In this document: piece after piece, positions 27,385 to 56,373 of the stretch
How the letters are laid out: each line of letters starts with the position of its first letter
How positions within the stretch are numbered: the stretch's first letter is position 1
Assembly: GCF_000378205.1 (NCBI RefSeq)
Contig: NZ_KB899418.1
Location: 62,001 to 126,000 of the forward strand
Origin: Sediminispirochaeta bajacaliforniensis DSM 16054
Lineage (GTDB): Bacteria > Spirochaetota > Spirochaetia > DSM-16054 > Sediminispirochaetaceae
Direction of reading: 5' to 3'
Length of the DNA stretch: 64,000 bases
Notes under the pieces: generated by a model
Seen by the model: the letters and a program-made list of their open reading frames with translations, nothing else
Databases searched by the model: none
Told to the model about the DNA's origin: nothing
Translations under genes and position numbers: made by a program

Positions 27385-28551
27385 CTATGTATATCGATTA
27401 AAGTGGTCGTCAATTACAATAGTTGCAGCACCCAAAAGATTTTCATTTTCTTTGATGTTTGTCATATGGATATCGACAGTGAAAAAATTCCTCGCAATGT
27501 AAGAACCGAGTACATACTTTTTTACTGCATCCAAAAACATTTCCGGTCTATACACGACAAAACCGGAAAGAATCACCTTATCCAGGGCCATCAGGTTGAC
27601 GGCATTTACAACGGCGATAGAAAAAATTCCCGCATAGTGATCAATGATATCGATAAAATAACGCTCACCAGCATAAGCTTTGTCTACGATCTGCTCCCAG
27701 GAGACAATATCCGGAACATCTTTCTGTACAGCCTTCAAAATATTAGTGATTCCATAATATTGGTATAAACATCCTCGATTTCCGCAAGCACAGGGTTCTC
27801 CGTCGAATTTAATAGACATGTGGCCCAATTCCGGCGTCAAACCGAGCTTTCCGCTATACAATTGCCGATCTTTCACAATACCAAATCCGATACCAACATA
27901 CGATATTATGCACATGAAATCATCAAGGTGTTTTCCGTAGCCAAAATACAATTCCGCTAAGCTGACTGCATTTGCATCCCGTTCCAGGCAGATATCCACA
28001 TCAAAATATTTTTTGAACGCCTCAACGATGTGAAAACCATGCCATAATGAAAAATCCGGAATATCACTGTCGATAATGCCATTCATGGTATCAACAGGGC
28101 CTGGGGTTGTGATCCCCAGGCCTAAGAGCGAACCCTTTTTGCATTCCGGCAGAATCGTGTTCTTTATCGCATCACTTATGATCTTTACCGCCGTTTCGGG
28201 GCTATCGGCTCTGTCAAGTGCAACTGGTTCGGAAATAAGAACAGCACCTCCAAATTCAACCAAACCAATCGTACAGCCATCTCGTGCAATATCGACACCT
28301 ATGATTGTATAGCGATCGGAAACAATCTCTAAGGTTTTCGGATTACGTCCGACCCTGTTGTTTTTTACGTTAACGTCCGATTCCCGGATAAGACCTTCTT
28401 CGATTAATTCGTCAACAAGATTCGTGATTGTTGCCCGGGTTAGGCCTGTCAACCTTGCGAACTCAGCCCGTGAAAAATTCTTTTTAAAAAGATTACGAAT
28501 AATCAAGTGCCGGTTATAGATTTTGTTGTAAGGTGAATTTCTCGCATGCAT
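27385..28551 (-). CDS. ROK-family transcriptional regulator
   Basis: A 388-residue protein with an N-terminal winged helix (FSRAEFARLTGLTRATITNLVDELIEEGLI, residues 25-55) and a C-terminal sugar-kinase-like ROK domain: GVDIARDGCTIGLVE, GITTPGPVDTMNGII, LTPELGHMSIKF and the zinc motif CACGNRGCL. Most such proteins are sugar-responsive repressors; its place just upstream of dhaK on the same strand suggests dha control. Its ATG lies only 4 bases from the presumed prophage end and no ribosome site is seen before it, so the native 5' region has probably been displaced and expression may be altered. Confidence 0.85.
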   Translation of the reverse strand: MHARNSPYNKIYNRHLIIRNLFKKNFSRAEFARLTGLTRATITNLVDELIEEGLIRESDVNVKNNRVGRNPKTLEIVSDRYTIIGVDIARDGCTIGLVEFGGAVLISEPVALDRADSPETAVKIISDAIKNTILPECKKGSLLGLGITTPGPVDTMNGIIDSDIPDFSLWHGFHIVEAFKKYFDVDICLERDANAVSLAELYFGYGKHLDDFMCIISYVGIGFGIVKDRQLYSGKLGLTPELGHMSIKFDGEPCACGNRGCLYQYYGITNILKAVQKDVPDIVSWEQIVDKAYAGERYFIDIIDHYAGIFSIAVVNAVNLMALDKVILSGFVVYRPEMFLDAVKKYVLGSYIARNFFTVDIHMTNIKENENLLGAATIVIDDHFNRYT

Positions 28552-28555: not shown

Positions 28556-28664
28556 TGTAGCGGCGCGAGAAAACTCGGGCGATATGACGGGATAATCTAC
28601 CAGCCTCATGTATGCACCTGCTGAAAACATCTATTCACTTTTGCTTGGTCGCGAGACAAATACC
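28556..28664. other. Presumed prophage terminus with transposase-site-like repeats
   Basis: The host ROK gene ends its upstream side at 28551, and phage sequence appears to begin TGTAGCGGCGCGAGAAAAC at 28556. A TG start is the rule for Mu-type ends (TG...CA). The element CGCGAGA plus A-rich bases recurs at 28564-28574 and 28650-28660, as would be expected for paired transposase sites. The exact base and the 5-bp duplication (candidate TATTC, 28551-28555) need the other end for confirmation. Confidence 0.5.
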
Positions 28665-29695
28665 ACCTCGCTCATCACCTGCCTCCGGAGCCGAAAGGTG
28701 TTGGCGTGACTGGAATGAGCAATCCATGAGTGAACTGCGGCTCGCACACGATCTATATCGATGCGCCCATACTTGTATTCCGCAGCCAGTCTCTTAAGCC
28801 TCTTTCTCATACGCTTGACAGAGTCTTTTCTCAGCTTCCTATGCGTTGGCCAGATCCGGTATCCGAGAAAATCCAACGGTCTGCCGCCGAATCTCCGCAA
28901 CGGAAACACTTGGGTTTTCCCGTTTGTATGCAGGAGCAACCTGTCCTGCAGAAACCCCTCAATCCGGCGCCTGAGATCCTGCAGGTGCTGTTTGTCGTGG
29001 TGCAGTATCACGAAATCATCCATGTACCTGACGTAGTGCCGCTCTCTGAGATCGTACTTGACGAATTTATCCAGCTCGTGGAGGTAGATGTTGGCAAACA
29101 GCTGGCTGGTCAGATTCCCGATAGGGATACCACGAGGCCGACAAGCCCCTTCCTCCACGTACGAATCTATGATGTTGTCCAGAAGCCGCAGAGTTGGCTT
29201 GCAGGCTATTCTCTTCCTCAGTAGGCGCTTGAGGATCTCGTGGTCTACACTCGGAAAATACTTCGAGATATCGGCCTTGAGAGCATAGACAGCCCCATGC
29301 TCACGTCGCACCTTTCGCATCATCCGTTCGGCAGTATCGGCTCCGGCGTGCGTTCCTTTGCCTGGCCTGCAGGCGTAGCTATCCTTGATGAAACGAACCT
29401 CCCAGATGGGCTCGATAACCGACACAATTGAGTGATGCACGACCCTGTGCCGGAACGGCAGAGACGCAACCACTCTGGTTTTCGGCTCATGCACCGTGAA
29501 TAGCCGATAACCGGAGGTATCGTACTCCTCCCAGATCAACTCATTCTGGAGCTGTATCAGCTCCTCCTCGAGGCCGGCCGTGAACCGGACCACTTCATTC
29601 TGGTACCGCTTGCCCTTACGGGCTTTTCGGTAGGCTTCATGGAGAGCTTCAAATGAGTATATCTGTGGGTAGAGATTATTGTACGTCTTCGCCAT
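28631..29695 (-). CDS. DGR reverse transcriptase
   Basis: A 354-residue reverse transcriptase. Visible blocks: KADISKYFPSVDH (first catalytic Asp, near residue 142), GIPIGNLTSQLFANIYLHELD (near 190) and RYMDDFVILHHD (catalytic YMDD near 224-227), then a thumb region rich in Arg/Lys. The IGNLTSQ motif, with SQ in place of the QGxxxSP of group II intron enzymes, is the signature of DGR reverse transcriptases. There is no maturase or endonuclease domain. ATG 29695 has AGGGA 5 bases upstream; a GTG just before it is too close to that site. It copies the template-repeat RNA with adenine-specific errors, with Avd as partner. Confidence 0.96.
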   Translation of the reverse strand: MAKTYNNLYPQIYSFEALHEAYRKARKGKRYQNEVVRFTAGLEEELIQLQNELIWEEYDTSGYRLFTVHEPKTRVVASLPFRHRVVHHSIVSVIEPIWEVRFIKDSYACRPGKGTHAGADTAERMMRKVRREHGAVYALKADISKYFPSVDHEILKRLLRKRIACKPTLRLLDNIIDSYVEEGACRPRGIPIGNLTSQLFANIYLHELDKFVKYDLRERHYVRYMDDFVILHHDKQHLQDLRRRIEGFLQDRLLLHTNGKTQVFPLRRFGGRPLDFLGYRIWPTHRKLRKDSVKRMRKRLKRLAAEYKYGRIDIDRVRAAVHSWIAHSSHANTFRLRRQVMSEVVFVSRPSKSE

Positions 29696-29858
29696 CACGT
29701 TCCCTATAGAAAATCGGGGCGCCCAGAGGGGTCGGCTTCAGCCTACTGTCCCAGGCACCCCTGTTTATGTCTTTCGGCGCTTGGCCGAGGAGCACGGGTC
29801 CTTTTGATACTGCACTGGATGCGAGCCCATGAGCCCGCGCCTTCTCGCAGTTTTCAAG

Positions 29859-29974
29859 AGCCGGGCGGAACCCGATGTTGTTGTTCGAGTTCGACCGCAG
29901 GTTGTTCAAGTTCAACGTGAACACCCCGGCATCCGCCGCGTTGTTCCAGTTGCCACCCCGGATCGGCAGGCGCT
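29859..29974 (-). repeat. DGR template repeat (TR)
   Basis: A non-coding 116-base template, 8 bases after the avd stop and 164 bases before the reverse transcriptase start. It aligns without gaps to 30398-30513 (constant offset 539). On the sense (minus) strand it has 25 adenines, mostly as AAC codons in the reading frame of the target gene, the usual design because AAC can mutate to many amino acids but not to a stop. The 91 non-adenine positions are identical to the variable repeat. Confidence 0.97.
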
Positions 29975-29981: not shown

Positions 29982-30326
29982 TTAACCCGAGCCCCTTTGG
30001 ATTGCCTTAAACCAACCTCCGATCATACGCCCGATCTCGTTCAGAAGCATCGACCAGTAGTGATACTTCTTGAAAGGGAGATACTCCAACTCCTTTGCGA
30101 GACGGATTTGCGCCCGGAGCAGGTCCAGTTCAGCATCCAAGTCTTGCATCGTTGTTTTCTTGTGGTACCTGTGGTTGCACACAATGATCAGTCGCAGCAG
30201 GCGCCACATCGTGTCACGGATCTCTTGGCTTAGAACGTGCCGCTCCGACTTTGGGAACTGCCGAATTGCCGTGTATCCGTAGGCTATCATATCCTCGGTC
30301 TTCTGTCGGATTTTCAGGTCGTCCAT
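29982..30326 (-). CDS. avd: DGR accessory variability determinant (Avd)
   Basis: A 114-residue, mostly helical basic protein (for example TIDLDAELDLLRAQIRLAKELEYLP-like helix pattern around residues 60-85; C-terminal KYHYWSMLLNEIGRMIGGWFKA). This matches the four-helix-bundle Avd family, related to 23S rRNA intervening-sequence proteins, which forms a pentamer that binds the reverse transcriptase and template RNA. It lies between target gene and template repeat, as expected. The ribosome site is weak. Confidence 0.9.
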   Translation of the reverse strand: MDDLKIRQKTEDMIAYGYTAIRQFPKSERHVLSQEIRDTMWRLLRLIIVCNHRYHKKTTMQDLDAELDLLRAQIRLAKELEYLPFKKYHYWSMLLNEIGRMIGGWFKAIQRGSG

Positions 30327-30339: not shown

Positions 30340-30361
30340 GGGCCGGGCTATCGCCCGGCCC
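30340..30361 (-). repeat. GC-rich hairpin downstream of the variable repeat
   Basis: Perfect 9-base arms GGGCCGGGC (30340-30348) and GCCCGGCCC (30353-30361). Read on the target-gene strand the 4-base loop is GATA. It begins 36 bases beyond the 3' end of the variable repeat. DGR target sites in phages carry such hairpins or cruciforms with GC-rich stems and GRNA tetraloops, needed for efficient retrohoming; GATA fits GRNA. No T-run follows, so a terminator is unlikely. Confidence 0.85.
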
Positions 30362-30382: not shown

Positions 30383-31474
30383 TCAGATCCCAACAAAAGC
30401 CGGGCGGAACCCGAAGATGTGGCTCGAGTACGACCGCAGGCTGTTCAAGTGCAACGCGAACACCCCGGCAACCGCCGCGATGTGCCAGTAGCCACCCCGG
30501 AACGGCAGGCGCTCGCCTACGTTCCGCATATATATGTTGTCGCCACCCAGAGATGTAAGGCCCGGAAAGAGCCCCAATTGCTTAGCAAGATCCGGTACCG
30601 TAATCCCGGCGTCGGCGGTCATGGATTCAAAATCCATACTGGCGCTTGTCGACCCGTCGCTCTGGCTGGTCACGGTGTCGTTTAACAGCACATCGCCGCT
30701 GCCTGTGGCACCGGTAGCGTCGTACTTCAACGTACCACTAGTACCAGGAGCCACAAGTGACCCGTCTTGCGCTATCGCCTTCCATTCACTCGACCCGGCA
30801 GACTGATCCTTGCTGTTGTCAGCTGCATTGTTTGACGCCAGGATCTGAATCTCACCGTCTACCAGCCGAAGACCACCAACCCACTCCCATACGTTACCAT
30901 TCAGATCCGCGATCCCCGCGAAGGTATGATCGTGACGCCAGGTCGCCGGGCCGGAGCCGGTAAGGATTCGGGCGCTGCCGATCGCCTGGCCCGGTGCATA
31001 CTGATCTCCGTCCTGGCGAGTGCCGGTTTCGTACGTGGCAGCGTGATCCCTACCGTAGTTGTTGTTGCCGTTCGGCATAGTGCCGTTCTTATGAGCCCAG
31101 AGAGCGATCGCGGCCCATTCGGCATTGGTCAGCAAGTGCCACCCCGCGCCTTTGGCCGAGCAGTACCCACGGGCCTGATCGGCGTCGGTGTACACCCTGG
31201 GGTCTTGTCCTGGCAAGGCCAAGGCGCGCCCGTCATGGACGACCGCCTGATACTGGCCGACCCAGATCTCGCTCTTTTCGACGCCGTTCACCAGGAAGGC
31301 GGGATGCACCCCAGACCCAAGGGACGCATCGATATCCTCGATGTTGAACTTGGGAATCCGCACCATGTAGCTGGGATATCCCTTGTCGTCGTACATAATC
31401 GTAACACGTCCGCCGGTCGCCGCTTCGACAGCCTGCCTGGCTGTATCCTTAATACTGATAATCAACCCACTCAT
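30383..31474 (-). CDS. DGR target: variable tail-associated C-type-lectin/FGE-like protein
   Basis: A 363-residue protein. Residues about 35-200 look like the formylglycine-generating-enzyme/sulfatase-modifying-factor type of C-type lectin fold (SEIWVGQYQAVV, GWHLLTNAEWAAIALW, IADLNGNVWEWVGGL), followed by a Ser/Gly-rich insert and a C-terminal segment RLPFRGGYWHIAAVAGVF...GFRPA that is the diversified ligand-binding surface. Residues 321-359 are encoded by the variable repeat. ATG overlaps the preceding stop (TAATG) and has GGAGGA. Position after tail-fibre genes suggests the phage receptor-binding protein, analogous to Mtd of BPP-1. The catalytic cysteines of true FGE are not expected here. 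Confidence 0.93.
   Translation of the reverse strand: MSGLIISIKDTARQAVEAATGGRVTIMYDDKGYPSYMVRIPKFNIEDIDASLGSGVHPAFLVNGVEKSEIWVGQYQAVVHDGRALALPGQDPRVYTDADQARGYCSAKGAGWHLLTNAEWAAIALWAHKNGTMPNGNNNYGRDHAATYETGTRQDGDQYAPGQAIGSARILTGSGPATWRHDHTFAGIADLNGNVWEWVGGLRLVDGEIQILASNNAADNSKDQSAGSSEWKAIAQDGSLVAPGTSGTLKYDATGATGSGDVLLNDTVTSQSDGSTSASMDFESMTADAGITVPDLAKQLGLFPGLTSLGGDNIYMRNVGERLPFRGGYWHIAAVAGVFALHLNSLRSYSSHIFGFRPAFVGI
30398..30513 (-). repeat. DGR variable repeat (VR)
   Basis: A 116-base copy of the template repeat inside the 3' end of the target gene. Thirteen positions differ (30415, 30417, 30421, 30423, 30430, 30441, 30451, 30457, 30471, 30480, 30484, 30490, 30502), each opposite a template adenine: seven A to T, three A to C, three A to G. 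They change codons 325, 329, 331, 332, 335, 340, 342, 345, 349, 351, 352, 353 and 354. The invariant GC-rich 3' end, coding GFRPA, is the expected site where mutagenic homing starts. Confidence 0.97.
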
Positions 31475-31839
31475 TACTCATCTCCTCCTTCGCTGTTTTC
31501 CGGTGCGGGAGGCAAGGCCCACACATTTACGACCACTTGATCCAGGTTCACCGGCTGTTTTTCCATCTCCATGATGGCGGATCCTGATTCCGGATCTGCC
31601 TCTCCGGTTTCGACCTCAAGGTAAGCCGCCGGCGGGAGTGTTACGTTAGCCACATACCAGCCCGCCCCTTTACCTTCTACCACCTGGCCCTCATGATCGA
31701 GCGACAAGTCGATCGTGATTGCCTGGTCTTGTTGCCGTGCGGCAACATCGATCTGATACCCACCTACTTTGAGATACTTAGTTCCCATCGTGATCGGCAG
31801 GTACTCGCCTTCTGTCTGATAGAGAATCTCTATACCCAT
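31474..31839 (-). CDS. Small phage protein upstream of the DGR target
   Basis: A 121-residue beta-rich, acidic protein starting MGIEILYQTEGEYLPITMG. The ATG at 31839 is chosen for its AAGGAGGAG site; an earlier ATG overlaps the tail-fibre gene. It ends in an overlap with the target-gene start, so the two are translated together. I recognise no family; by position it could be a connector or chaperone for the variable receptor-binding protein. Confidence 0.65.
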   Translation of the reverse strand: MGIEILYQTEGEYLPITMGTKYLKVGGYQIDVAARQQDQAITIDLSLDHEGQVVEGKGAGWYVANVTLPPAAYLEVETGEADPESGSAIMEMEKQPVNLDQVVVNVWALPPAPENSEGGDE

Positions 31840-31849
31840 GAACTCCTCC

Positions 31850-32746
31850 TTATCCCTTGTTGACATTTAGCAGCGTCCAGCGCAACGCCACATTGTCGGC
31901 GCTACCCTCATGACGGATCTTGAAGCCATTTTGCTGCTTCTCGACCACCTTGACCGCGCCGATCATCCCGAAGTCCGTTGCGCTCTCGACCGTGAGATTC
32001 ACGTCGTACTCAGGTGCGTTTATCGCAGGAAACGGAAGTGCAACATACACGTCCTGTACGGTGCTGATCGTGAATCCGTTCCAGCCCTGCACAATCCGAC
32101 GGTCGGTGAGTGTTACCGCATCAATACTGTCCGTAGTGTCACCGGCCGGTACCGTGATCTCGTACAGCTTGAGGCCGGAGTCCGGGATCTCTTTGGCGAT
32201 GCTGACACGATATCCACTCCCATCGTGCCAAAGGTATGCCCAGTACGTCTCCGCAGCTGATCCGGGATTTTGGGGAACCGTGACGTGGTAGTCATCATCA
32301 GGGACATACCGAACATCTCCATCGATATACGCGATAGACCGATCCCCTGATACATACGCACCCGTCCGTGTCAGATGAAGAGCACGGATATCGCTTTTCA
32401 CCAAGATGACCCCCTCAACCACCCATTTGTTTTTGAGTACCGCCGTTCCCTGACTAAGCACCCGCTCACGGAGATCCGTGATACCCTTCCGGTTCACCCC
32501 AACGCCGGACAGTGCCTGCGCAATAGCTGAAATGATGGCATTCTGCGCTTCATCGTCGATACCTTGCTGTAGGTTCTGCAGTTCTCCGTCCGTCTGGTCC
32601 ACACGCCCCTTCAGGTACACAGTCCTGTTCGCAAGTTGCTTTGCCTGCAGATTACTGATTCCGTCTGGGCCGCCCAGCACTGGGTCCGTGGTCTCGATCT
32701 GGTATATACCGCCTTCCCAGACCGATGATTCTTGTACATTTGCCAT
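31850..32746 (-). CDS. Tail fibre protein
   Basis: A 298-residue protein whose first 60 residues (SSVWEGGIYQIETTDPVLGGPDGISNLQAKQLANRTVYLKGRV) match the baseplate-attaching N-terminus of P2/Mu-type tail fibres. A short coiled-coil follows, then a beta-rich shaft ending in an Ig-like or lectin-like C-terminus. Strong AAGGAGG site. It likely carries the variable DGR product to the tail tip. Confidence 0.8.
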   Translation of the reverse strand: MANVQESSVWEGGIYQIETTDPVLGGPDGISNLQAKQLANRTVYLKGRVDQTDGELQNLQQGIDDEAQNAIISAIAQALSGVGVNRKGITDLRERVLSQGTAVLKNKWVVEGVILVKSDIRALHLTRTGAYVSGDRSIAYIDGDVRYVPDDDYHVTVPQNPGSAAETYWAYLWHDGSGYRVSIAKEIPDSGLKLYEITVPAGDTTDSIDAVTLTDRRIVQGWNGFTISTVQDVYVALPFPAINAPEYDVNLTVESATDFGMIGAVKVVEKQQNGFKIRHEGSADNVALRWTLLNVNKG

Positions 32747-32772: not shown

Positions 32773-33216
32773 TTAGAAGATGATCAGCCATTGTCCCTCG
32801 ATGCTGATATCCGATTCTTTTTCGATCGCCTTCGTTCGATGTTTTCGTGCAAACAAAGCGCCGTCGGCCGTGAGAAGCCCAAATTCCCCGATCGACATAC
32901 CGTTCGCTTCGGTGACCAAAAGATTCCAGGCAATCTCAACCTGACCAGGCGCCGGATACGAGAATGCCTGCACCGGCTTCATATAAGCCGATGTGATTCC
33001 GGTATCACCTGGCGTTGGAGTCGACTGGTTGGTCCCGAAGGCGATTCTGTCAATACTTCTTCCGCTTACCTCACCAGAAATCAACCTCGCCATCACCGAA
33101 CGCGCCGCGTCGACGATTAGATTCCGGTCTTGATACTCAAGAACCAACTGTTCGCCTCGATATACCTGCATACGAAAATCGCCCCGCACAGGCACCACCT
33201 CTCTTTGTGTAATCAT
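32773..33216 (-). CDS. Phage tail-tip/fibre-associated protein
   Basis: A 147-residue beta-rich protein with NLIVDAARSVMARLISG near residue 32, IDRIAFGTNQSTPTPGDTGI, and a C-terminal EFGLLTADGALFARKH segment. This pattern recurs in small tail-collar or fibre-attachment proteins of Myoviridae-type tails. GGAGG site before ATG; overlaps the gp48-like gene by 4 bases. Exact role not known. Confidence 0.6.
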   Translation of the reverse strand: MITQREVVPVRGDFRMQVYRGEQLVLEYQDRNLIVDAARSVMARLISGEVSGRSIDRIAFGTNQSTPTPGDTGITSAYMKPVQAFSYPAPGQVEIAWNLLVTEANGMSIGEFGLLTADGALFARKHRTKAIEKESDISIEGQWLIIF

Positions 33217-34280
33217 GCAACCTCCTCTCTGTAGAACTCGTCTCCCTCATAAAAGATGCCGTCGTAGTAGCTCTTGACACCGTCATGCCGCAATAGTCCA
33301 TCGTACGGACTGCACCAGTAGCGCATCCGTCCATCAAACCTCCGGTGATGACGAACAATAAATGGCATTGAAGTGTCGATAATCGCGTCTTGGACGCTGC
33401 CGTAGGAAAGCCCTTGATACAACAACCGACCGTCGTGGTGCGCCACAATCGTTGCGCGATCAGACAGTGAAACGTCCACTTCGGCCTGCAGAACGTCTCC
33501 GCCCGTACTGCTATACGTCGCCGGGTTCGGAATTGTTAGTGGCACCAAGAGCAATGAACTCCCGATGTAGTCAATCTCTGCTCCGTATGTTCGGGATCCC
33601 TGGTACTGTTCTGGGATCGCGACCTCATCCAGCATGGTTCCTACCACAGGGTGAAACTGGTTATGCAACCAGCCGCCACCATAAGTGGCGGCACCGTCAA
33701 ACATCTGCCTGAAACCATGGTCGTGGCGGATGCGACTGTTGTATCGCAGGCCACGCGGGTAAACGTCGCGATCCTTCGTGATTACCGACACCAAAGACTG
33801 ATCGCCAAGCACAACTCGCTCCACGTACCGAAACCAGTCCGCTATGGTGAGCTCAACGTTCGGATTGAGTGTTTCGTCCAGGAAGCTCCATAGCCACATA
33901 CGGTCTGCATCGCTGAGGTTCAGAACCTTGACATAGACTTGGAGAAACTCCTCTGTAAGTAGATACCTGTCGCCAAAATGCCCGGTCAGCTGCCCTTTGA
34001 CGTATACTCGCTCACCGGCCTTGGATAGAAAATAAGAGGCTGCAGTGACACGCAGCCGGTATTCCTCTGAGGTATCTCCCGGGAGGCGAGGAACAAACAG
34101 CGCTTTTCCGTGCTTATTAAGCGCGGCATCGTCACAGAGGTATGGATACCGAGCAAACAACGCCGTCTGGGCATCGTTTCTTACCACGCCAAACACCTTG
34201 CCCAAAACGGAGAACAGGCTCCCGCGATTCTTTTTTTCTATCCCTGGCGGCGCCACAGCTTCCTTGATCCATTCGATCAT
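33213..34280 (-). CDS. Tail protein in the Mu gp48 position (tail protein I-like)
   Basis: A 355-residue protein following the baseplate J gene, where Mu has gp48. The N-terminal half (RNDAQTALFARYPYLCDDAALNKHGKALFVPRLPGDTSEEYRLRV) resembles tail protein I/gp48 baseplate wedge proteins; the C-terminal 180 residues are beta-rich and Tyr/Asp/Gly-rich (FDGAATYGGGWLHNQFHP, HHRRFDGRMRYWCSPYDG) and longer than usual. ATG 34280 follows AAGGTGG. It overlaps the J-gene stop. Confidence 0.65.
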   Translation of the reverse strand: MIEWIKEAVAPPGIEKKNRGSLFSVLGKVFGVVRNDAQTALFARYPYLCDDAALNKHGKALFVPRLPGDTSEEYRLRVTAASYFLSKAGERVYVKGQLTGHFGDRYLLTEEFLQVYVKVLNLSDADRMWLWSFLDETLNPNVELTIADWFRYVERVVLGDQSLVSVITKDRDVYPRGLRYNSRIRHDHGFRQMFDGAATYGGGWLHNQFHPVVGTMLDEVAIPEQYQGSRTYGAEIDYIGSSLLLVPLTIPNPATYSSTGGDVLQAEVDVSLSDRATIVAHHDGRLLYQGLSYGSVQDAIIDTSMPFIVRHHRRFDGRMRYWCSPYDGLLRHDGVKSYYDGIFYEGDEFYREEVA

Positions 34281-35332
34281 CACGTAGCCACCTTAGTTGC
34301 AGTGACAGAAGCGGTAATTATGCCGGATTCGTCCGGCTCGACGTCTCGGTCGGGGCTGAGTATCTCGACGGTATCGACATCAACATCATCATAGAGAGCG
34401 TACAGATCTCTGATCGCGAAACGACTACCGATACCAAGGCCGTAGACATAATTCTCAGCGATCAATCGGACATCCGCATCGGTGGCCGCGCCAGTAAACT
34501 CTATCTGCACGGAAATAGTCGTGGTGTCAGGAGGTTTGACCTGCACGTCGAACCCCATCAGCTCATGATCGTGCAATGCGGCATCGACAGCCGATAGCAA
34601 TTCAGATCCAGGAACTCCGTTCACTGCTGCAATGATTACGTCCGTGCTACCGGGACCTCGAGGCGTGCGAATGATCTTTGCTTCCAAAACCCCGTCGACA
34701 GATGTTGCGTAGAACTTGTATGCCGCTCGGGTGTCGCCGAGACTCTGGCTCTGCCATCTATCCTTTATCCGGCTTCGATACGGCGCATCTTCCTCCGCAT
34801 CTGTTCCAAGAGCCTCAATCCAGTCTGTGGGAACGGTGAGCAACTCCACGCCGTTGACCACCTTGGTAAGATAGATGGACGTGCCCGGAGATACGTTGTA
34901 CTCAGAACCAGGTATCGCAGCGGTCACCGGAAGGGAAAACTCGCCCGCTTGAAACGTAATATCCTGCGATACCCGGAACCTTAAATCAGTACCGGTTACC
35001 GCAACCCAGCTTCCTGCCGAAATAGCGCCGGCGGCGTACGCCTGTCCAATGAACGACCCGGTTGTCCTTTCGGCTTGTTTTCGCGTAACACCAAGCAATA
35101 CTCCCCACATTGCCAAAAAATCACCGGAGGCATCGTCGAGTGTCGCATTTAGATAGATCGGATTGATATCCGATTCGTACAACTGTTTTATCGACGCGAC
35201 AATCGTCTCCAGAAACCCCCGAAGTACTCCGGTAGACTTGAAGTTTGAGATCCCCGTCTCCTGTGTGGCAATTGCGAAGACTTCCTGCCTGATCTCCTCT
35301 TCCGTCTTCTCCAGAAATGATGGATCGCTCAT
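34280..35332 (-). CDS. Baseplate J-like protein (Mu gp47)
   Basis: A 350-residue baseplate wedge protein. TEEEIRQEVFAIATQETG near the start, LDDASGDFLAMWGVLLGVTRKQAERTTG near residue 65 and APYRSRIKDRWQSQSLGDTRAAYKFYATSVDGV near residue 180 are the J-family landmarks. GGAGGT before ATG. Forms the baseplate with the gp46- and gp48-like products. Confidence 0.9.
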   Translation of the reverse strand: MSDPSFLEKTEEEIRQEVFAIATQETGISNFKSTGVLRGFLETIVASIKQLYESDINPIYLNATLDDASGDFLAMWGVLLGVTRKQAERTTGSFIGQAYAAGAISAGSWVAVTGTDLRFRVSQDITFQAGEFSLPVTAAIPGSEYNVSPGTSIYLTKVVNGVELLTVPTDWIEALGTDAEEDAPYRSRIKDRWQSQSLGDTRAAYKFYATSVDGVLEAKIIRTPRGPGSTDVIIAAVNGVPGSELLSAVDAALHDHELMGFDVQVKPPDTTTISVQIEFTGAATDADVRLIAENYVYGLGIGSRFAIRDLYALYDDVDVDTVEILSPDRDVEPDESGIITASVTATKVAT

Positions 35333-37324: not shown

Positions 37325-37865
37325 AGAGATCCTCCATATCTCGGAGACGGCTCCAGTCTGCTTCGTCACCAGCTCGTTCAATCACTGTCTCTTCCGGCGT
37401 AGACGCAGCAGCTTCTTCCGTCTCTACATTTTGCCGCTGCACCAGCCCCACCACCGGATCATGCTCGGTAAAGTTGATCGACAGCTCCACCGCGTCCCGG
37501 CCGCTGTCGTCTGTCACGTCGAGACCCGCAAACAGCACCTGCCGGATATTCAGAGAAGAGGCCAGTTGAGACTCCAGGGCGTAAATTACCGGCAATCCGT
37601 CTTCCAGCTGTTTAAACGCCTCGTTCACGGTGCGCAGGTGATCGTAGCGACTGACCAGCCGCTCGTTCGGCTCGTAGATTGTCGCGTCAATCGACAGATC
37701 CCAGTCGTCCCAGCCGTCAAACACCTTGCGGCGACCACTGGACCCTTCTATCTTGGATGAGTCGATTACGATCTTCCCACGGCAGCCGACGCGATTGACG
37801 ATGCACGGGAGCGGTACCCCATCCATCCTCAATACGCCATTCTTTCCGATTGCGATCCTGCTCAC
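37317..37865 (-). CDS. Tail protein in the gp43 (N) position
   Basis: A 182-residue protein between tape measure and hub genes, where Mu has the much longer gp43 (DNA circularisation N). It begins RIAIGKNGVLRMDGVPLPCIVNRVGCRGKIVIDSSKIEGSSG and has a beta-rich centre with IYEPNERLVSRYDHLRTVNEAF. A short baseplate/hub-loading protein is likely. GTG start, GGAGG site, 4-base overlap with tape measure. Confidence 0.6.
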   Translation of the reverse strand: MSRIAIGKNGVLRMDGVPLPCIVNRVGCRGKIVIDSSKIEGSSGRRKVFDGWDDWDLSIDATIYEPNERLVSRYDHLRTVNEAFKQLEDGLPVIYALESQLASSLNIRQVLFAGLDVTDDSGRDAVELSINFTEHDPVVGLVQRQNVETEEAAASTPEETVIERAGDEADWSRLRDMEDLYG

Positions 37866-40297
37866 GATACATCCTCCACCTGCTCCCGGAGCTCTTCCAC
37901 AAACCGAGTCAGGTCGGCCGCCTCGGAGAACTGCACGTAGAGATTCTCGACTTGAATAGGCCGCTCATTCTTGCCACCGTCCGTACCACCGGAGCCGATC
38001 CTGTTGACCAGATCCCGGAGCACCCCGGAGATACCGGAATCCTGCTGTCGATCAACCGCCTGTACATCCAGCCGCTCGCCGGAGGGAAACTGCAGGACGT
38101 TGTTCACCTGGGCAAACTGGCTGCGCGCCGCATCCGGGAGCCCGTTCCCGGCCCGCATACCATCAGCCATCGTCTCAGGGATCGCCCTGCCTGCGGCGGT
38201 CAAGGTAGAGAACGGACCTTCTTTGGCGTCCGAGTGGGGTAGCAGATCACCCACCCGGGCAAAGGCGCCACGCACTCCGTCAACCAGACGCCGCCCCCCC
38301 TCGGCCACCCCGGAGCCCACGGTCTGGAAGATCCCTTCACCGCTGGTAAGGAAGTCCGGGAGCAACTCCTGCACCCGCTCCTTGACCGCCCGGAAGGGCG
38401 CCAGGATACGGTCCACCGCACCGGTAGCCAGGCTCACGATCGAGTCCCACAGACCTGCAAAGAACTCCCGAATAGAGTCCCAGTTCTGAATGATCTGGCC
38501 GATAATGGTGTAGTCGGACCATATACCCTTGATAAAATCCCAGGCACCCGAGAAGACGTTCGTAACGCCTTCCCACAACCCGGAGAAGAACTGAGTAATA
38601 GGCTCCCAGTTCTGCACGATGATCCCGATCGGGTGATAGGTCAGGAACAGATTCTTGATCCAGTCCCAGACCGTGGCAAACACGTTCTTGATCCCCTCCC
38701 AGAGATTCACAAAGAACTCGGTGACCGTATCCCAGTTACGCACGACCCAGACCGCACCGGCGGCCACCGCCGCCACCCCGGCCACCACCGCGTAGATCGG
38801 CCAGTAGGCGGCCATATGCGCCGCCGCTACGCCCCACATCGTACCCATCCAGCTGATCGCCGACGGGATAAACCCGATCACCGCCCGACCGGCGTTGAGG
38901 ATCCCGGTCCCCAAAGCCTTCACCTGGACGCCTACCAGCGCCATGGAGGAGCGCATCATCCCGGCAATACTGCCGAAACGGTCCATCAGCATCGTGAAGC
39001 TCAAGAGCCCGGTAGACATCTGCAGCACGGTCGAGAAACCGCCGGCCATCGCACCGCCCACCTCCAGGGTAGCGCCCGCGATTCCCGCCAGATTCTCCCC
39101 GACCAGAGGAAGGCTCGTGGCCCAGTTGAGGAAGCGCACTCCCGCGGTGGCGGCCTCAACCCCGAGACCCTTCACCGCGTTGGCCCCGCCGCCGATCCGC
39201 TCCTGGAACACCGCCCAGGAGTTATTGAGCCCCTCCTGCCGCCGGGTGAGGGTGTCAGCCATCTTTCCGGCGTTATCCAGCGTCACCCCGGCGGAGTTGC
39301 TTACCGCATCGAAGCCCGCCTCGAGATCCCCGAGGTTGGCCGTCAAGAGACTGACCGCCGGGCCCGCCTCGGTACCGAAGCCCCCGATCAAATCGTCGGA
39401 GGAGTACCCGGCGGCCGAGATATTGCGGAGGGTCTGCATCAGATCGATACCACCCTCACTGGTCCGAGCCACGTCGAACCCGAGGCGCTCGCTGGCGGTC
39501 GACATCTGTGCCAGGGCGCTCTTCATCGCCGTCCCCGCCTCAGCGCCGGTGATCATATTGGTGTTGAGCTGCCCGAGAGCCGCCGCCACTTGCTCCAGGG
39601 GAGCCTGAGCGCTGACCGCCAGACCGCTCACGTTGGCAAAGCCCTGGGTAAACTGACCGAGATTCTCAAAGGCAAAGTAGTTCTGGGTGCCGGCGACGAT
39701 ATCGGAGAGCCGCTGCATCTCCGTGCCCGCCTCGGCGGACTTGTCGCCCATGTTGTTGAAGATACCGGTGAGAGCGCTGGCGGCTTCCTGCAGGGATCCC
39801 CCGGTAGCCTGCGCCAGGAGCGCCGCCTGTTCGGTGGCCGCAATACCCTGTTCAACAGTCAAACCGGAGGAGAGCATCGTATAGACCGAGTCGGCAAACT
39901 CCCTCGCCCCAACCGATGCAATACTTCCCGCCTCACTGATCCCGCCGGCCATCTCTGCAGCGGCCTCCGCGATCCGCTCCATACTGCCGGCGGTGTCCCC
40001 GCCGATCGCGTTGGTGTCGTTCAGGACGGTGGAAACCCGGGCCATTGAGACCTCGAACTCCGCAGCCACTTGACCTGGAACAGCCGTCAACTGCTGGAAG
40101 TTCCGGGCGAGCTCGCCCACCTCCATGGAGACCATCGACATATCGGCGGCAACGTCCAGCATACCGCCCGACTTTATTTCATCGGCGTACCCGTGAATTT
40201 CTCCCCGCAGCTCTTCGATCCGGCCTGCCGCCTGGCTGAAGCCGGAGGTAAACTGATCGCGGAAGAGTAGGGTTACCGATGTAACAAAGTCGCTCAC
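37862..40297 (-). CDS. Tail tape measure protein
   Basis: An 811-residue protein. Residues 60-370 match the TP901-type tape-measure core (helical, Ala/Gly-rich: MERIAEAAAEMAGGISEAGSIASVGAREFADSVYTMLSSGLTVEQGIA). Hydrophobic segments lie near 395-420 and 500-525 (AVVAGVAAVAAGAVWVV), then tandem W-x-N/G repeats around 530-640 (LWEGIKNVF, LWEGVTNVF, LWDSIVSLA). It sets tail length and enters the membrane on injection. GTG start 9 bases after the frameshifted chaperone stop. Confidence 0.92.
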   Translation of the reverse strand: MSDFVTSVTLLFRDQFTSGFSQAAGRIEELRGEIHGYADEIKSGGMLDVAADMSMVSMEVGELARNFQQLTAVPGQVAAEFEVSMARVSTVLNDTNAIGGDTAGSMERIAEAAAEMAGGISEAGSIASVGAREFADSVYTMLSSGLTVEQGIAATEQAALLAQATGGSLQEAASALTGIFNNMGDKSAEAGTEMQRLSDIVAGTQNYFAFENLGQFTQGFANVSGLAVSAQAPLEQVAAALGQLNTNMITGAEAGTAMKSALAQMSTASERLGFDVARTSEGGIDLMQTLRNISAAGYSSDDLIGGFGTEAGPAVSLLTANLGDLEAGFDAVSNSAGVTLDNAGKMADTLTRRQEGLNNSWAVFQERIGGGANAVKGLGVEAATAGVRFLNWATSLPLVGENLAGIAGATLEVGGAMAGGFSTVLQMSTGLLSFTMLMDRFGSIAGMMRSSMALVGVQVKALGTGILNAGRAVIGFIPSAISWMGTMWGVAAAHMAAYWPIYAVVAGVAAVAAGAVWVVRNWDTVTEFFVNLWEGIKNVFATVWDWIKNLFLTYHPIGIIVQNWEPITQFFSGLWEGVTNVFSGAWDFIKGIWSDYTIIGQIIQNWDSIREFFAGLWDSIVSLATGAVDRILAPFRAVKERVQELLPDFLTSGEGIFQTVGSGVAEGGRRLVDGVRGAFARVGDLLPHSDAKEGPFSTLTAAGRAIPETMADGMRAGNGLPDAARSQFAQVNNVLQFPSGERLDVQAVDRQQDSGISGVLRDLVNRIGSGGTDGGKNERPIQVENLYVQFSEAADLTRFVEELREQVEDVS

Positions 40298-48630: not shown

Positions 48631-49749
48631 TCAGGCGGAAAGCACCGTCTCCGCATCGATCCGCGATTGACCGATCTCCGCCGCCAGATTCATGCTTCGT
48701 TTGACCAGGTTGTTCACCGTCAGCGGGTAGGCGAGGCTGATCGCCTGGCCGCCCCGGGTCCGCCGGGCAAGGCGTTCCCGCATGGCGTTGTAGGCGCTCT
48801 CGTCCACCAGCTCCTTGACATCCCGGCCGATCCGCTTCATCTTCAACTGCAGGTAGGCTTCAAGTTCGCCTGGTCGGGCCAGAGACTCGATCTCGGCAAC
48901 TTCAACCCGCCTGATTATTTCCCTGGCTTCCCAGTTCCGAGACTCGTCCAACTTACTTTTGAGCTCGGGCTGGGCTATCAGGATAATCGCCAGCAGTTTC
49001 TTGAACCCGTCTTCCAGCTCCCAGAACCGCTTCAAATACTTGAGAGTCGCAATCGCCAGATCGTGAGCCTCCTCAATCACCAGCACGTGGCTCCATCCCG
49101 CCCGGCTGCTTGCGGTAAGGATCCGCTCCACCTGCCGCGCCTTCGCCTCCAGGGTGCGCTTGGGCCGCTCGGTGCTGCAGTCCTCCACAATCGCATCGGC
49201 GATGCTGGTCGCCGTGAGCCGGGTCTTGTCGATGGTCCGGGGGAAGATCACCTTCACCTTGAGCCCCTCCTGGTTGATCCGGTCGCTCATATACCGCCGC
49301 AGAGTCGTCTTGCCGCTGCCGGACTCCCCCAGCACCGCAAGCATCCCGCCCACCTTGGCGGTCATGTACATGTACTCCGCCACATACCGGCTGGAGTCGC
49401 CCAGATAGACATCCTCCTGCCCGTTCACATCATCCACAAAGGGATCCTGAAAAACCCCGAACTGCCGCTTGGCCGCCTGACTCAACATAACGTTGACCTC
49501 CTGTTCTGCCTCGTCTTCGTCGTTGTTCTCGTCCCGGCCGTCCAGAAATCTCCAGATACCGGTGACATCCACGTTCCGGGCGGTGAGGATTCCATTCACC
49601 GTATCCCGAACTTCTTTCTGCTTGCGCCCTTTGGGAAACCGACCGTGGTTCACAATCAAGCTGACCGAGGCAATGCTCATACCGAGCTCGCTGGCCAGCC
49701 TGGTGTGGCTGATCTTCGCTTCCCGCAGCGCATCCTTTACCGTGCGCAC
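48631..49749 (-). CDS. MuB-like transposition ATPase
   Basis: A 372-residue AAA+ ATPase. An N-terminal helix-turn-helix (SHTRLASELGMSIASVSLIVNHGRFPKG) is followed by Walker A GESGSGKT (141-148) and Walker B HVLVIEEAHD (221-230). It would bind target DNA and deliver it to the transposase. GTG start with GGGAGGGG; overlaps the transposase stop by 13 bases. Confidence 0.9.
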   Translation of the reverse strand: MRTVKDALREAKISHTRLASELGMSIASVSLIVNHGRFPKGRKQKEVRDTVNGILTARNVDVTGIWRFLDGRDENNDEDEAEQEVNVMLSQAAKRQFGVFQDPFVDDVNGQEDVYLGDSSRYVAEYMYMTAKVGGMLAVLGESGSGKTTLRRYMSDRINQEGLKVKVIFPRTIDKTRLTATSIADAIVEDCSTERPKRTLEAKARQVERILTASSRAGWSHVLVIEEAHDLAIATLKYLKRFWELEDGFKKLLAIILIAQPELKSKLDESRNWEAREIIRRVEVAEIESLARPGELEAYLQLKMKRIGRDVKELVDESAYNAMRERLARRTRGGQAISLAYPLTVNNLVKRSMNLAAEIGQSRIDAETVLSA

Positions 49750-51464
49750 GCTTCCCCTCCCTCAAGGTCACCCAGAAAGGCGTCGAGCTCCGGCTCCGTC
49801 ACCCCTTCCGGGAACCGTCGTTTAATCTCGGCAAAGTAGGACGGGTCCCACCCGTGACCCAGCCGTGCCATCACGTACTTGGCCGCCTCCACATGGTTGA
49901 GCGTCCTCACCGGTTCACGCCGCGTATCTATCACCGCCCCCCGCCGGGGGAAGGGCAGCATCGAGCCGCCCTCGTCGGCGATCGCGTCCACCGCCCGCAG
50001 ACCCGCTCCGTCGTTGAACTCCTCCATCGGTACCGCTCCCGGCCCGGTGAGGTTGTCCAGTTTCTTGTGAATCAAGTCCACGTAGGTCTCCGGGTTGCGC
50101 TTGTAGTTCTCGCCCCACACCGGCGCGTCCAGCGGCTGCCCGAGCTCGTCCATCTCCACCGGATAGACCGTCTCGGTGACCGTCTGTCCCTCCCAGTCGT
50201 GGCGGATCCGCAAGGCTCCGAGCTCGTCCATCAACAGCGCCTGCACCTCTACGGTGGCGCCCACACGTACCCCCGGAACCCCGCCCACGCGGTAGACCGC
50301 CCGGCGCTTTATTCGCGGGTGCACAAAGGTGATCGTCAGATCCCCGGCAACCTTCCGGGTCTCCGGCTGGTAGGCCAGAAGCTCCTTGGCCTCTTCCGGC
50401 AGCTCCCTGAGCTCCTCCGGGCGGATCGCCAGCCACGCCTCCAGGCGGGCAAACTTGACCCCCCGGCGCTCCAGGCGCGTATCCACACCCTTGATCCGGT
50501 TGGCGTTGTACAGCGCCGCCCAGCGCTCCGCCGCCTCGTTGAGCTCCTCCACCGATGCCACCGGCTGGAAGCGCAGGCGACTCTCAAAGAGCGTCTCCAC
50601 CAGGTTGTTGGCGTTCTCAACGGACCCCTTCACCCGGGGCTTACCCGGCAGGTGCACGTGGGTCTTTACATCCAGCCCCTCCAGTGCGTTCTGGATCGGC
50701 TTTGAGGTGTTGGCGCTGCCGGCGTCCCAGATCAGCCACTCCGGCACCCCGTGAAAGGCGTAGAGCGGATCATCCTTCGGGCTCCAGGCGTACATCAGAA
50801 AGTCCCACAGCGCCGTCATGCTCTCACCCGGCTGCTGGTAGTAGCGCAGTGAGATCGAGCCGGTGCGGTGGTCGGTGAGCACGTAGCGCCACACCTTCAG
50901 CTCCCCCTTCTTCTCCATGAAGGGCTTATTCTTGTACGCCTCGGAGTCCTCGATGATCCGCTGACGCTGCTTGGGAAGTCGCTTCATCCCCTGGGTCTTG
51001 TCCGGCAGGTAGTACAGCAGGCACAAACTCGGGTCCACCAGGTGAACATGGTTGGGGTGGAGGCTGCGCATGTTGATATGCGCCGTCTCGCTCTTGCTCT
51101 GCGTCCCCAGGTCCATCCCCCGGGCCCGCAAAAGCCGCGCCAGGTGCTCGTTGCTCGCCCCGTTGAAGTTGACCCCGTTGGCCTCAAGGATCTGCCGCGC
51201 CGTGGGGATGTACAGGGTTGCCTTGCCGTTCTGCCGCACCGCCGCGTTCATCGCCGCCGCCAGAATCTCCAGGCTGTCGGAGGGAACTTCCGTGTCTCCG
51301 GCGTCCCGGCGCCGGCGTCGGCCGGACTCCCACCCGGCGGCCTTCAGCTTGCGGTAGAGTTGCTTCGTATCCATCCTGAGCTGACCCGCCCAGGTCTTGA
51401 TCATCGTCGAGCGTCGGGCCGGGTCCTCGACGCCTTCCAGTAGCCGCACATACTCCTCAAGCAT
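49737..51464 (-). CDS. MuA-like DDE transposase
   Basis: A 575-residue transposase. The rve core shows the catalytic triad: Asp144 in NHVHLVDPSLCLLYYL, Asp247 in EWLIWDAGSANTS and Glu284 in VKGSVENANNLVE. A helical DNA-binding region precedes it, and the C-terminal 250 residues contain the Mu-transposase C-domain beta-barrel (RAVYRVGGVPGVRVGATVEVQALLMDELGALRIRHDW). It lacks a long N-terminal enhancer-binding part like that of Mu A (about 660 residues). It would catalyse replicative transposition of the phage. Confidence 0.92.
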   Translation of the reverse strand: MLEEYVRLLEGVEDPARRSTMIKTWAGQLRMDTKQLYRKLKAAGWESGRRRRRDAGDTEVPSDSLEILAAAMNAAVRQNGKATLYIPTARQILEANGVNFNGASNEHLARLLRARGMDLGTQSKSETAHINMRSLHPNHVHLVDPSLCLLYYLPDKTQGMKRLPKQRQRIIEDSEAYKNKPFMEKKGELKVWRYVLTDHRTGSISLRYYQQPGESMTALWDFLMYAWSPKDDPLYAFHGVPEWLIWDAGSANTSKPIQNALEGLDVKTHVHLPGKPRVKGSVENANNLVETLFESRLRFQPVASVEELNEAAERWAALYNANRIKGVDTRLERRGVKFARLEAWLAIRPEELRELPEEAKELLAYQPETRKVAGDLTITFVHPRIKRRAVYRVGGVPGVRVGATVEVQALLMDELGALRIRHDWEGQTVTETVYPVEMDELGQPLDAPVWGENYKRNPETYVDLIHKKLDNLTGPGAVPMEEFNDGAGLRAVDAIADEGGSMLPFPRRGAVIDTRREPVRTLNHVEAAKYVMARLGHGWDPSYFAEIKRRFPEGVTEPELDAFLGDLEGGEACAR

Positions 51465-51467
51465 CGG

Positions 51468-52442
51468 TCATTCCTCATCCGGCTCGGTCGGCTCTGGGAA
51501 ATACCCCACAAACTCGTCGCTAAAGTGCTCGGCGTACTCCTCTCGGAGGATCTTCGCCCGCTCTTCCACATCTTCCATCTGGAAGGTCAGCTTGGTGGGA
51601 ACGTGCCCCGCCTGCACGTAGAAGCGGATCGACTGGAACCGCTGAAAGAGCTCCTCGGCGATCCCGGAGAGCTTCTGGTTCAGGTGAAACTGCGCCCCGT
51701 CCCACTCGCCGGGCTCGATCTCCCGCAGACGCCCGAGGATGTAGTCGATCCGGTTCTGCAGCCGGGCGCCTTCCATCCATACCACGTCGATCTCCGCCGA
51801 GAGGCGCTCGGCCTCCGGCTCCCAGCTATGCGGGTACAGGAGCTTCCGGTTGGCCTGCTCCAGCTCGGTGATCCGCTCCTCCTTCTTCTGGATCCGCTCG
51901 GAGTAGGCGATCGCGTCCTGCCGCCGCTCCTCCCGCTCGGCCCGGAGGATCTTCCGCAGCTCCGTGGGGCTCATCCGCTGGATATCGTCCAGGCTCTTGC
52001 CCGCCAGGGTGCCCCCTTCCTCCAGCGCCTCCAGGTCCTCGTCGTCCATCATCGCCAGCTCGTAGACCTTGGTGACGGAGTCCAAATGGGCGACCAGTCG
52101 CCCTTTTGGGTTTGGCTCACCGTTGTCGCCTATAAACTTTCTGGCGGCCCGCATCATGCTTTTGGCAACGGAATGGCTAATTCCGATATTTTCCTCGACG
52201 TACTTCATGAAGTTACCGTGTGACTCATGCTCCTTGAGCTGGATCAACCGGCGCCCCGCCTGGAGCATCGCCATCACTCCCTGGTGGAGATAGAACTTCA
52301 CCTCACCCACGATCCGCCCGGCGTCGTAGGGCAGGTTGTCCCCGTAGGTCTCGTCTATTTCGTGGATATTCTTGGCTACGATCGCCTGTGCTTCCGGCGT
52401 TACGTCCCGCGCCGCTTCATTGTTCCGCTTAGTATTCGCCAT
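51468..52442 (-). CDS. DUF3102-domain early protein
   Basis: A 324-residue protein. Residues 40-115 (GEVKFYLHQGVMAMLQAGRRLIQLKEHESHGNFMKYVEENIGISHSVAKSMMRAARKFI) match DUF3102, which contains a helix-turn-helix-like fold; a long coiled coil follows (residues 160-200), and the C-terminal 120 residues are unassigned. It lies directly upstream of the transposase gene, 3 bases apart, and could regulate or assist it. Confidence 0.75.
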   Translation of the reverse strand: MANTKRNNEAARDVTPEAQAIVAKNIHEIDETYGDNLPYDAGRIVGEVKFYLHQGVMAMLQAGRRLIQLKEHESHGNFMKYVEENIGISHSVAKSMMRAARKFIGDNGEPNPKGRLVAHLDSVTKVYELAMMDDEDLEALEEGGTLAGKSLDDIQRMSPTELRKILRAEREERRQDAIAYSERIQKKEERITELEQANRKLLYPHSWEPEAERLSAEIDVVWMEGARLQNRIDYILGRLREIEPGEWDGAQFHLNQKLSGIAEELFQRFQSIRFYVQAGHVPTKLTFQMEDVEERAKILREEYAEHFSDEFVGYFPEPTEPDEE

Positions 52443-52749
52443 ACTGACTTTCCCCCTGGATGTACTCGATGTTCAGACGGTTCACCTTCTCCATCACCGT
52501 CATGATGTTGCGCTGCACCACCCGCATCAGCTCCGCAAAGGTCGGGGTGATCCGCCAGCCGCCGGAGGGCAGCTTCTCCGCCCAGCCCACCGCCTCCAGG
52601 TTCTTCAGGTCCCGGAAGATCGCCGTAGTGCCGCCGCCGATCTCGCCGGCCAGCTCCCCCGCGGTAATGCCGTCCAGCTCATGGCCCACCAGGTGCTGCA
52701 TCACCTTGATCAGCCGCTGTTGTCCGTTGTTGAGGTAGTTCTCAGCCAT
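52429..52749 (-). CDS. Winged-helix early protein
   Basis: A 106-residue protein with an IclR/MarR-type winged helix: GQQRLIKVMQHLVGHELDGITAGELAGEIGGGTTAIFRDLKNLEAVGWAEKLPSGGWRITP. Likely DNA-binding. GGAGGG site; overlaps the following gene by 14 bases. Confidence 0.75.
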   Translation of the reverse strand: MAENYLNNGQQRLIKVMQHLVGHELDGITAGELAGEIGGGTTAIFRDLKNLEAVGWAEKLPSGGWRITPTFAELMRVVQRNIMTVMEKVNRLNIEYIQGESQYGEY

Positions 52750-53065
52750 GGGCGCCCTCCACCGGCATGGCGATGGTGGTGAGGTAGGTCCCGTGGTGAC
52801 TGCCCATCTCTATGTAGCTCACCAGCCGGTAGCCGATCGCCGCCACCGCCTTCACCATCACCTCCATGGTCACGTCCAGGTTGTCCCGCCGGGGCGGCTC
52901 GATCACCTCGATGATCACCACGCCCATCCCCTGGGGGTTGATCCGCGCCACAAATCCGTAGTCCCGCAGGTGACTCTCCATCCGCGCTTTCAGCGCCCTG
53001 CGCATCAGCCCCGGATCGGGGACGGTTTCGGTCCTGGTCTCGATAGCCGTTGTCTGTGTAACCAT
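52742..53065 (-). CDS. Early phage protein of unknown function
   Basis: A 107-residue protein with an alpha/beta pattern (LMRRALKARMESHLRDYGFVARINPQGMGVVIIEVIEPPRRDNLDVTMEVMVKAVAAIGYRLVSYIEM). GGAGG site. Overlaps the winged-helix gene by 8 bases, so it is translationally coupled. I do not recognise the family. Confidence 0.6.
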   Translation of the reverse strand: MVTQTTAIETRTETVPDPGLMRRALKARMESHLRDYGFVARINPQGMGVVIIEVIEPPRRDNLDVTMEVMVKAVAAIGYRLVSYIEMGSHHGTYLTTIAMPVEGAHG

Positions 53066-53070
53066 GCTGA

Positions 53071-53343
53071 TTACCTCCTCTGGTCTTCGTATGTCCTCGT
53101 CAACAGGTGGCCCCAGCGCTGGGTGTAGGCCAGTGCCGCCCGGACGTAGGCTTCATGGGTTGCGGGGTCCCGACTCACCCGGCTGCGCAGCTCCGCCAGG
53201 TGCGCCGTATCCATCCGATACCGGACCGCCCGCACCCCGGAGGTGATCATCACCTTCCACACCGCCCAGGCCCGGATAATCCGGCCCACAAGAGACCCCA
53301 GGTGAAAGAAGGTGAACGCCACCAGTCGCTGCTTTCGCCTCAT
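53071..53343 (-). CDS. Small basic early protein
   Basis: A 90-residue protein rich in Arg with one hydrophobic segment (LVAFTFFHLGSLVGRIIRAWAVWKVMI) and a helical C-terminus. The true start is taken as ATG 53343 (GGAG upstream, coupled to the preceding gene by overlap); the longer frame is low-complexity shadow sequence. Function unknown; membrane association is possible. Confidence 0.5.
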   Translation of the reverse strand: MRRKQRLVAFTFFHLGSLVGRIIRAWAVWKVMITSGVRAVRYRMDTAHLAELRSRVSRDPATHEAYVRAALAYTQRWGHLLTRTYEDQRR

Positions 53344-53531
53344 GCCATGAGCTCCTTCTGTACCGCGCTGATCTCCTGCCCCAGGGCGTCGATCCGATCG
53401 TTCACCCGGTCGAGCTCGGCCTCGCTCATCGCCTCGCTCTGCTTGCGCTTGTACAGCTCGTGCAGGTTCACCCGCAGCTCCTTGAGCCGATCCTTTGCCG
53501 GCCGCGTTGTCGCTTCTGGATTCCACTTCAT
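53340..53531 (-). CDS. Small coiled-coil early protein
   Basis: A 63-residue charged helical protein (AKDRLKELRVNLHELYKRKQSEAMSEAELDRVNDRIDALGQEISAVQKEL), probably a helical hairpin. Strong AAGGAGG site. Overlaps the next gene by 4 bases. Function unknown. Confidence 0.6.
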   Translation of the reverse strand: MKWNPEATTRPAKDRLKELRVNLHELYKRKQSEAMSEAELDRVNDRIDALGQEISAVQKELMA

Positions 53532-53547
53532 ACTCGCTCCTCCTTCT

Positions 53548-53841: not shown

Positions 53842-53844
53842 CCG

Positions 53845-54415: not shown

Positions 54416-54443
54416 GCCGATAAGGAGGGGGAGAGGTATGTAG

Positions 54444-54833: not shown

Positions 54834-54910
54834 TCGGGGCGGGGTCTGGTACGCAAAGCCCTCCGGCGGTAATCCTGGAGTTTCCCACCGGGCGGCGGGT
54901 GGAGTAAGGC

Positions 54911-55013: not shown

Positions 55014-55040
55014 AGGCAATACATACACCAGGAGGTATCT

Positions 55041-56371: not shown

Positions 56372-56373
56372 CT

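Follow-up and report, generated by a model that had tools for sequence, protein, structure and literature searches.

TaqVP, the variable protein of a Thermus aquaticus prophage (PDB 5VF4; PMC6328139), belongs over its full length to the same family as the DGR target described here, has the same fold and is encoded in the same target-avd-TR-RT order. Its nine variable positions are common to our target, which has four more (331, 340, 352 and 354); the paper on TaqVP does not treat a fibre, a small protein or the manner of attachment. Fifty-seven phage DGR targets have been related to TaqVP, with their role left to be determined (PMC6199706). In the DGR of Bordetella phage BPP-1 the target-avd-TR-RT order, a hairpin after VR and a C-type-lectin fold for VR are likewise present, but mtd directly follows the tail-fibre gene with no gene between, whereas a small gene intervenes here; BPP-1 is also not a phage of the contractile Mu type, and Mtd is only remotely like our target. 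The antireceptor DGR of Pseudoalteromonas phages ACA1 and ACA2 and of Vibrio phage VHML (PMC10612066) has a homologue of the target (37–40%, with 37% identity for the ACA1/ACA2 homologue) together with avd, TR and RT in phages with contractile tails, although these are P2-like or VHML-type, unlike the Mu-like phage analysed here. We detected neither the small gene nor the fibre docking domain in VHML.

The same order as in our locus (J, tail protein, hypothetical, fibre, small, target, Avd, RT) is found in Pseudomonas phage Bise (OR683401), for which we found no paper in the literature searched. The Bise target is 59% identical to ours, and both its fibre domain and its small protein match, but its host is Pseudomonas aeruginosa and its head genes lie on the other strand. 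Phage Mu switches host range at fibre genes that follow its baseplate wedge genes, a position like the one here, by inverting the G segment between two fixed fibres, in contrast to the open-ended mutagenesis of a DGR; this likeness is by gene position only.

A DGR in the tail operon of a Mu-like prophage

The window is the whole stretch of DNA that was analysed, 64,000 nt of Sediminispirochaeta bajacaliforniensis DSM 16054 (contig NZ_KB899418.1), and all coordinates refer to it. The phage genes that place the locus are as follows.

37862-40297, minus strand: tape measure, in the tail operon
34280..35332, minus strand: baseplate J-like protein (PF04865, E 9e-40)
33213-34283 and 32773-33216, minus strand: two further tail-operon proteins
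49737..51464, minus strand: MuA-like transposase, phage type (phrog_310, E 9e-66)

Long open frames encode MuA-like, MuB-like (phrog_296), portal, terminase, major head, contractile sheath (phrog_907) and baseplate proteins, and since these genes are open, we take the element to be a Mu-like, contractile-tailed prophage which, judging from its sequence, looks complete. An identical prophage sequence is present in IMG/VR (L003). The tail operon runs in the order tape measure, baseplate J, two proteins, fibre, small protein, target, avd, TR and RT, so that the target, with its small companion gene, comes directly after the tail fibre, the one recognised fibre gene in the operon, and before the DGR machinery. 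The initial annotation had described the target as following the tail fibre of a contractile-tailed Mu-like phage in a spirochaete; the open frames, sheath, tape measure, baseplate J, MuA and MuB-like genes agree with this, and three matches to FlaA (PF04620) in the genome, against none in 14 control genomes, support the spirochaete host.

The head genes are divided by MuA/MuB (49737-61358), terminase, portal and minor head upstream and protease and major head downstream, an arrangement from which the gene order of phage Mu differs; in Bise the corresponding head genes, on the opposite strand, are at one end. A ROK-family regulator (27385-28551) directly follows RT, which puts the DGR at the extreme end of the prophage, beside a host gene.

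The DGR itself comprises the following features.

30383..31474, minus strand: DGR target, TaqVP-type, 363 aa (phrog_2889, E 8e-147); putative receptor-binding fibre tip
30394..30513, minus strand: VR, codons 321-361, with 13 A-to-N changes within codons 325-354
30340..30361, minus strand: hairpin 3′ of VR, stem GGGCCGGGC of 9 bp, loop GATA
29982..30326, minus strand: Avd accessory protein, 114 aa (bAvd PF22296, E 1e-34; phrog_3206; NF033474 DivGenRetAVD)
29855..29974, minus strand: TR, the 120-nt template
28631..29698, minus strand: DGR reverse transcriptase (RT), 355 aa (PF00078; phrog_1423, E 5e-145)

VR and TR are 88% identical over 120 nt, and 13 of the 25 template adenines are changed in VR, compared with 1 of the 95 other bases (Fisher p 7e-10). 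The 13 adenine changes (7 to T, 3 to C and 3 to G) fall one each in codons 325, 329, 331, 332, 335, 340, 342, 345, 349, 351, 352, 353 and 354, just as the initial annotation had counted them, and the sole change at another base is a C-to-T in codon 360, close to the 3′ edge. Template adenines also account for 833 of 928 TR/VR mismatches across 69 relatives, and the 4.57 Mb genome has no TR/VR copies beyond these two. Avd exceeds the cut-offs of both PF22296 and NF033474, and YMDD and IGNLTSQ motifs could be read in the RT sequence. DGR-type RTs have a motif of their own in place of QGxxxSP.

Phage DGRs follow a rule in which a 7-10 bp GC-rich stem with a GRNA loop is located 4-34 bp past VR (PMC3240598), and the hairpin here, with its 9-bp stem and GATA loop starting 32 nt 3′ of VR, conforms to it. 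In 43 of 98 relatives a GRNA loop on a stem of 7 bp or more occurs at this place, versus 1 of 980 control windows. The locus thus combines an adenine-biased TR/VR pair, a DGR-type RT, Avd and the hairpin, as expected of a DGR. What is visible is a record of past changes; mutagenic retrohoming may be active at present.

The cassette varies in layout among relatives. Two to four tandem TR/VR-like copies, rather than one, lie between avd and RT in L016 (7679-8253), L020 (7851-8258) and L071 (7809-8216), possibly as several template repeats within one DGR. VR and TR are separated by ~1172 nt in L086, L090 and L097, versus the usual ~560, and something therefore appears to be inserted in the cassette.

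The target has the fold of TaqVP

A target profile built from 82 relatives matched TaqVP over its full length (E 2e-129). The AlphaFold2 model of the target (mean pLDDT 94.7, pTM 0.93) is a single-domain TaqVP fold that superposes on 5VF4 with a Foldseek E of 5e-54, a TM-score of 0.94 and an rmsd of 1.8 Å. This full-length match in both sequence and fold, with VR at the C-terminus, identifies the target as TaqVP-type and is in keeping with the FGE/C-type-lectin-like scaffold that had been proposed from the sequence. The initial annotation had further reasoned by analogy with BPP-1 Mtd; the idea of a variable protein for host recognition is supported, but TaqVP is the closer comparator, as Mtd gives a Foldseek E of 2e-3, 12% identity and a TM-score of 0.3, a remote relation.

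The C-terminal alignment of the target with TaqVP has no gaps and a constant offset of 19. TaqVP residues 344, 348, 351, 354, 361, 364, 368, 370 and 372 are variable and all nine are solvent-exposed (PMC6328139); they align with target residues 325, 329, 332, 335, 342, 345, 349, 351 and 353, every one of which is changed. Exposure, which is taken from the TaqVP crystal paper, is thereby covered for nine of the 13 sites, and the earlier concern that the diversified residues might be buried does not hold for these nine, because all align with exposed TaqVP residues. The other four sites have no variable equivalent in TaqVP; target residue 352 aligns with TaqVP W371, a fixed aromatic within the binding site. 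We considered and dropped the idea that site 340, Thr in TR and Ala in VR, had been selected back to the Ala of the family: this site is mutable in 12 of 60 relatives, and varies.

A fibre domain and a small protein are linked to the target

Upstream of the target are two genes whose products may connect it to the phage particle.

31850..32746, minus strand: tail fibre, 298 aa; residues 1-97 match the tail-fibre families phrog_3100 and phrog_4209, C-terminus matches phrog_9010
31853..32077, minus strand: fibre C-terminal domain of ~75 residues, conserved beside the small gene and target; putative socket for the variable protein
31474..31866, minus strand: small protein, 130 aa (phrog_8734); putative adaptor of the target or partner in its assembly

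The small gene and the start of the target have one base in common, in line with the coupling of the two genes noted originally. We observed that the fibre C-terminal ~75 residues, the small gene and the target form a near-obligate linked unit. Of the 98 loci that carry the target and extend 900 nt or more upstream of it, 74 have both the small gene immediately upstream and the fibre domain and 22 have neither, while the fibre domain occurs without the small gene in 2 and the small gene without the fibre domain in none. The fibre varies in length from ~137 to 558 aa across loci but retains the C-terminal domain. Loci lacking the unit occupy several separate places in the target tree, with at least 3 forced changes, and mostly have other target N-termini.

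The linkage also holds when approached from the fibre. A scan of IMG/VR with one conserved motif of the fibre domain, in which the best 80 matches were kept, yielded 78 new loci, 55 of them on contigs absent from the target search. The small gene and target follow the fibre domain in 75 of these 78, and the remaining three (L194, L234 and L239) stop at a contig edge, so that the arrangement is present in 75 of the 75 loci that continue; because the scan used one motif and the best 80 matches, more distant fibre domains may exist without a target. Among named phages, all 6 records that matched the fibre domain of a relative by BLAST also carry the target, whereas the fibre domain and small protein of the window itself had no BLAST matches among 50,697 phage records.

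The small protein shows very little conservation in its alignment and is predicted to be all-beta (pLDDT 85, pTM 0.71). Its model matched no solved structure (best E 0.17), and its one resemblance was to the model A0A8S5V8Y3 (E 1e-7), an uncharacterised viral protein. Profile hits in the PDB to PII proteins for the small protein, and to the Qbeta coat for the fibre, were taken as chance.

Two contigs, 2517572150_000001 (L067 and L070) and 2651869844_000001 (L048 and L079), have two TaqVP-type targets each; the N-terminus of the second is short, and neither the fibre domain nor the small gene goes with it. Two targets have been published for phage Lagaffe. Aeromonas phage phiARM81mr (L247, 4278-6014) has the target homologue as the C-terminal portion of a ~578-aa protein annotated as a virion protein, which by analogy would represent fusion in place of docking through separate proteins.

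Segments of the target co-vary with different partners

We compared pairwise distances by rank partial correlation across 51 non-redundant loci, taking 24-residue segments of the target against each partner with the rest of the target held constant. Two segments stood out.

31403..31474, minus strand: target residues 1-24; partial correlation with the fibre domain 0.38-0.49; putative contact
31193..31264, minus strand: target residues 71-94, the peak of 61-94; partial correlation with the small protein 0.45-0.59; putative contact

Residues 1-24 gave 0.38 with the fibre domain and 0.11 with the small protein, and residues 71-94 gave 0.57 with the small protein and 0.41 with the fibre domain; baseplate J had no peak at either segment (0.08 and 0.10, respectively). 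The two signals separated once the other partner was accounted for: with baseplate J and the small protein held constant, the fibre domain gave 0.49 at 1-24 and 0.08 at 71-94, and with baseplate J and the fibre domain held constant, the small protein gave 0.45 at 71-94 and −0.16 at 1-24. Segments from residue 111 onward, VR included, were mostly near zero or negative, with a weak small-protein signal of ~0.2 around residues 151-204. With Avd, RT and baseplate J all controlled for, 0.41 remained for the fibre domain at 1-24 and 0.55 for the small protein at 71-94, each reached in 0 of 1000 permutations, a figure to be read with both segments having been picked after the profile was seen and with the permutation leaving some shared ancestry. 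Stricter redundancy cut-offs left the picture unchanged. Target residues 1-54 show co-variation with RT and Avd too, and the N-terminal signal is therefore less specific than that at 71-94. Co-variation is not contact, and from these sequence comparisons we infer how the fibre, the small protein and the variable tip might dock.

A proposed fibre-tip role for the target

We consider it quite probable that the target varied by this phage-borne TaqVP-type DGR forms the tip with which the tail fibre binds receptors; its place in the virion and its binding of a host receptor are suggested by gene position, shared with the isolated phage Bise, and by the ACA phages, whose homologous antireceptor was detected in phage preparations. 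The initial annotation had put the protein at the tail tip; the end of a tail fibre is probable given gene position and partner co-variation, but the tail tip proper is not. RT and Avd would make an error-prone cDNA of TR, the errors falling at adenines, and this would replace VR with help from the downstream hairpin, altering residues that would make up a single exposed face of a C-type-lectin domain of FGE type. The fibre would be anchored to the baseplate by its N-terminus and continue through a shaft to a C-terminal socket, the 75-residue domain, which may hold target residues 1-24. The 130-aa small protein would touch the target around residues 61-94 as an adaptor or assembly partner, and the variable lectin face would stay free. 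It counts against this scheme that TaqVP is a monomer in the crystal (PMC6328139), whereas the fibre is presumably trimeric. Each round of retrohoming would then give phages with a changed tip and a chance at altered or new host cells. These genes lie where Mu has its invertible fibre genes, so mutagenesis may replace inversion here, a suggestion based on gene position only.

With a likelihood a little short of even, the small protein acts only transiently, as a chaperone of assembly in the manner of Mu gp50 or the Tfa type, and is not a structural adaptor. Its gene directly follows the fibre gene, as does the fibre assembly gene of Mu (PMC11915804), and chaperones too co-vary with their clients, but the protein matched no chaperone family and no solved fold. 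At even odds, in our estimate, the unit is a portable self-diversifying cartridge, in which TaqVP-type targets would be mounted through a dedicated, exchangeable pair of fibre domain and ~130-aa all-beta protein that grip residues ~1-24 and ~61-94, respectively, and phages of many hosts would swap the shaft and keep the socket.

The virion-borne target might also bind something other than a receptor, such as mucus, particles or other cells, or serve as an auxiliary adhesin while a different protein binds the receptor. Mucus adherence has been suggested for other phage DGR targets (PMC6199706), and the literature searched records no receptor for any TaqVP-type protein. We regard this as unlikely, given that the target follows the sole tail-fibre gene recognised in the operon and that ACA1 and ACA2, which have different hosts and do not cross-infect, have antireceptors that differ mostly in VR (PMC10612066).

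That the target is instead a product of lysogeny, displayed on the bacterial surface or secreted, like Treponema TvpA or the variable lipoproteins of Legionella, seems to us very improbable. TvpA is a spirochaete DGR target of related fold (Foldseek E 4e-6), yet the relation is distant at 13% identity. The ACA1/ACA2 antireceptor was found by mass spectrometry of phage preparations that had cellular contamination, and the variant detected, with high spectrum counts, was that of the resident prophage (PMC10612066), as might be expected of such a product. Against this, inspection of target residues 1-24 by eye shows neither a hydrophobic signal sequence nor a lipobox, and the gene is within the tail operon in near-obligate linkage to a tail-fibre domain. 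Finally, a formylglycine-generating enzyme, hinted at by a weak Pfam FGE-sulfatase match and a GNVWEW motif, can be practically dismissed, as the equivalents of human FGE Ser333 and Cys336 are Tyr329 and Ile332, inside the hypermutated face, so that the catalytic Ser/Cys/Cys triad is lacking, and FGE activity of TaqVP itself was judged unlikely by its authors (PMC6328139).

Implications

The system is of a known kind, a TaqVP-type variable protein in a phage DGR, most likely located at the end of a tail fibre. For the three-protein unit and its co-variation map we found no description in the literature searched, and we regard them as undescribed. TaqVP-type proteins had lacked a place in the virion, a question made testable, with the proteins of phage Bise, by the two linked partners and the target segments that they seem to contact. 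The proposed role of the target as a fibre tip would place DGR-driven variation of tropism in a spirochaete prophage.
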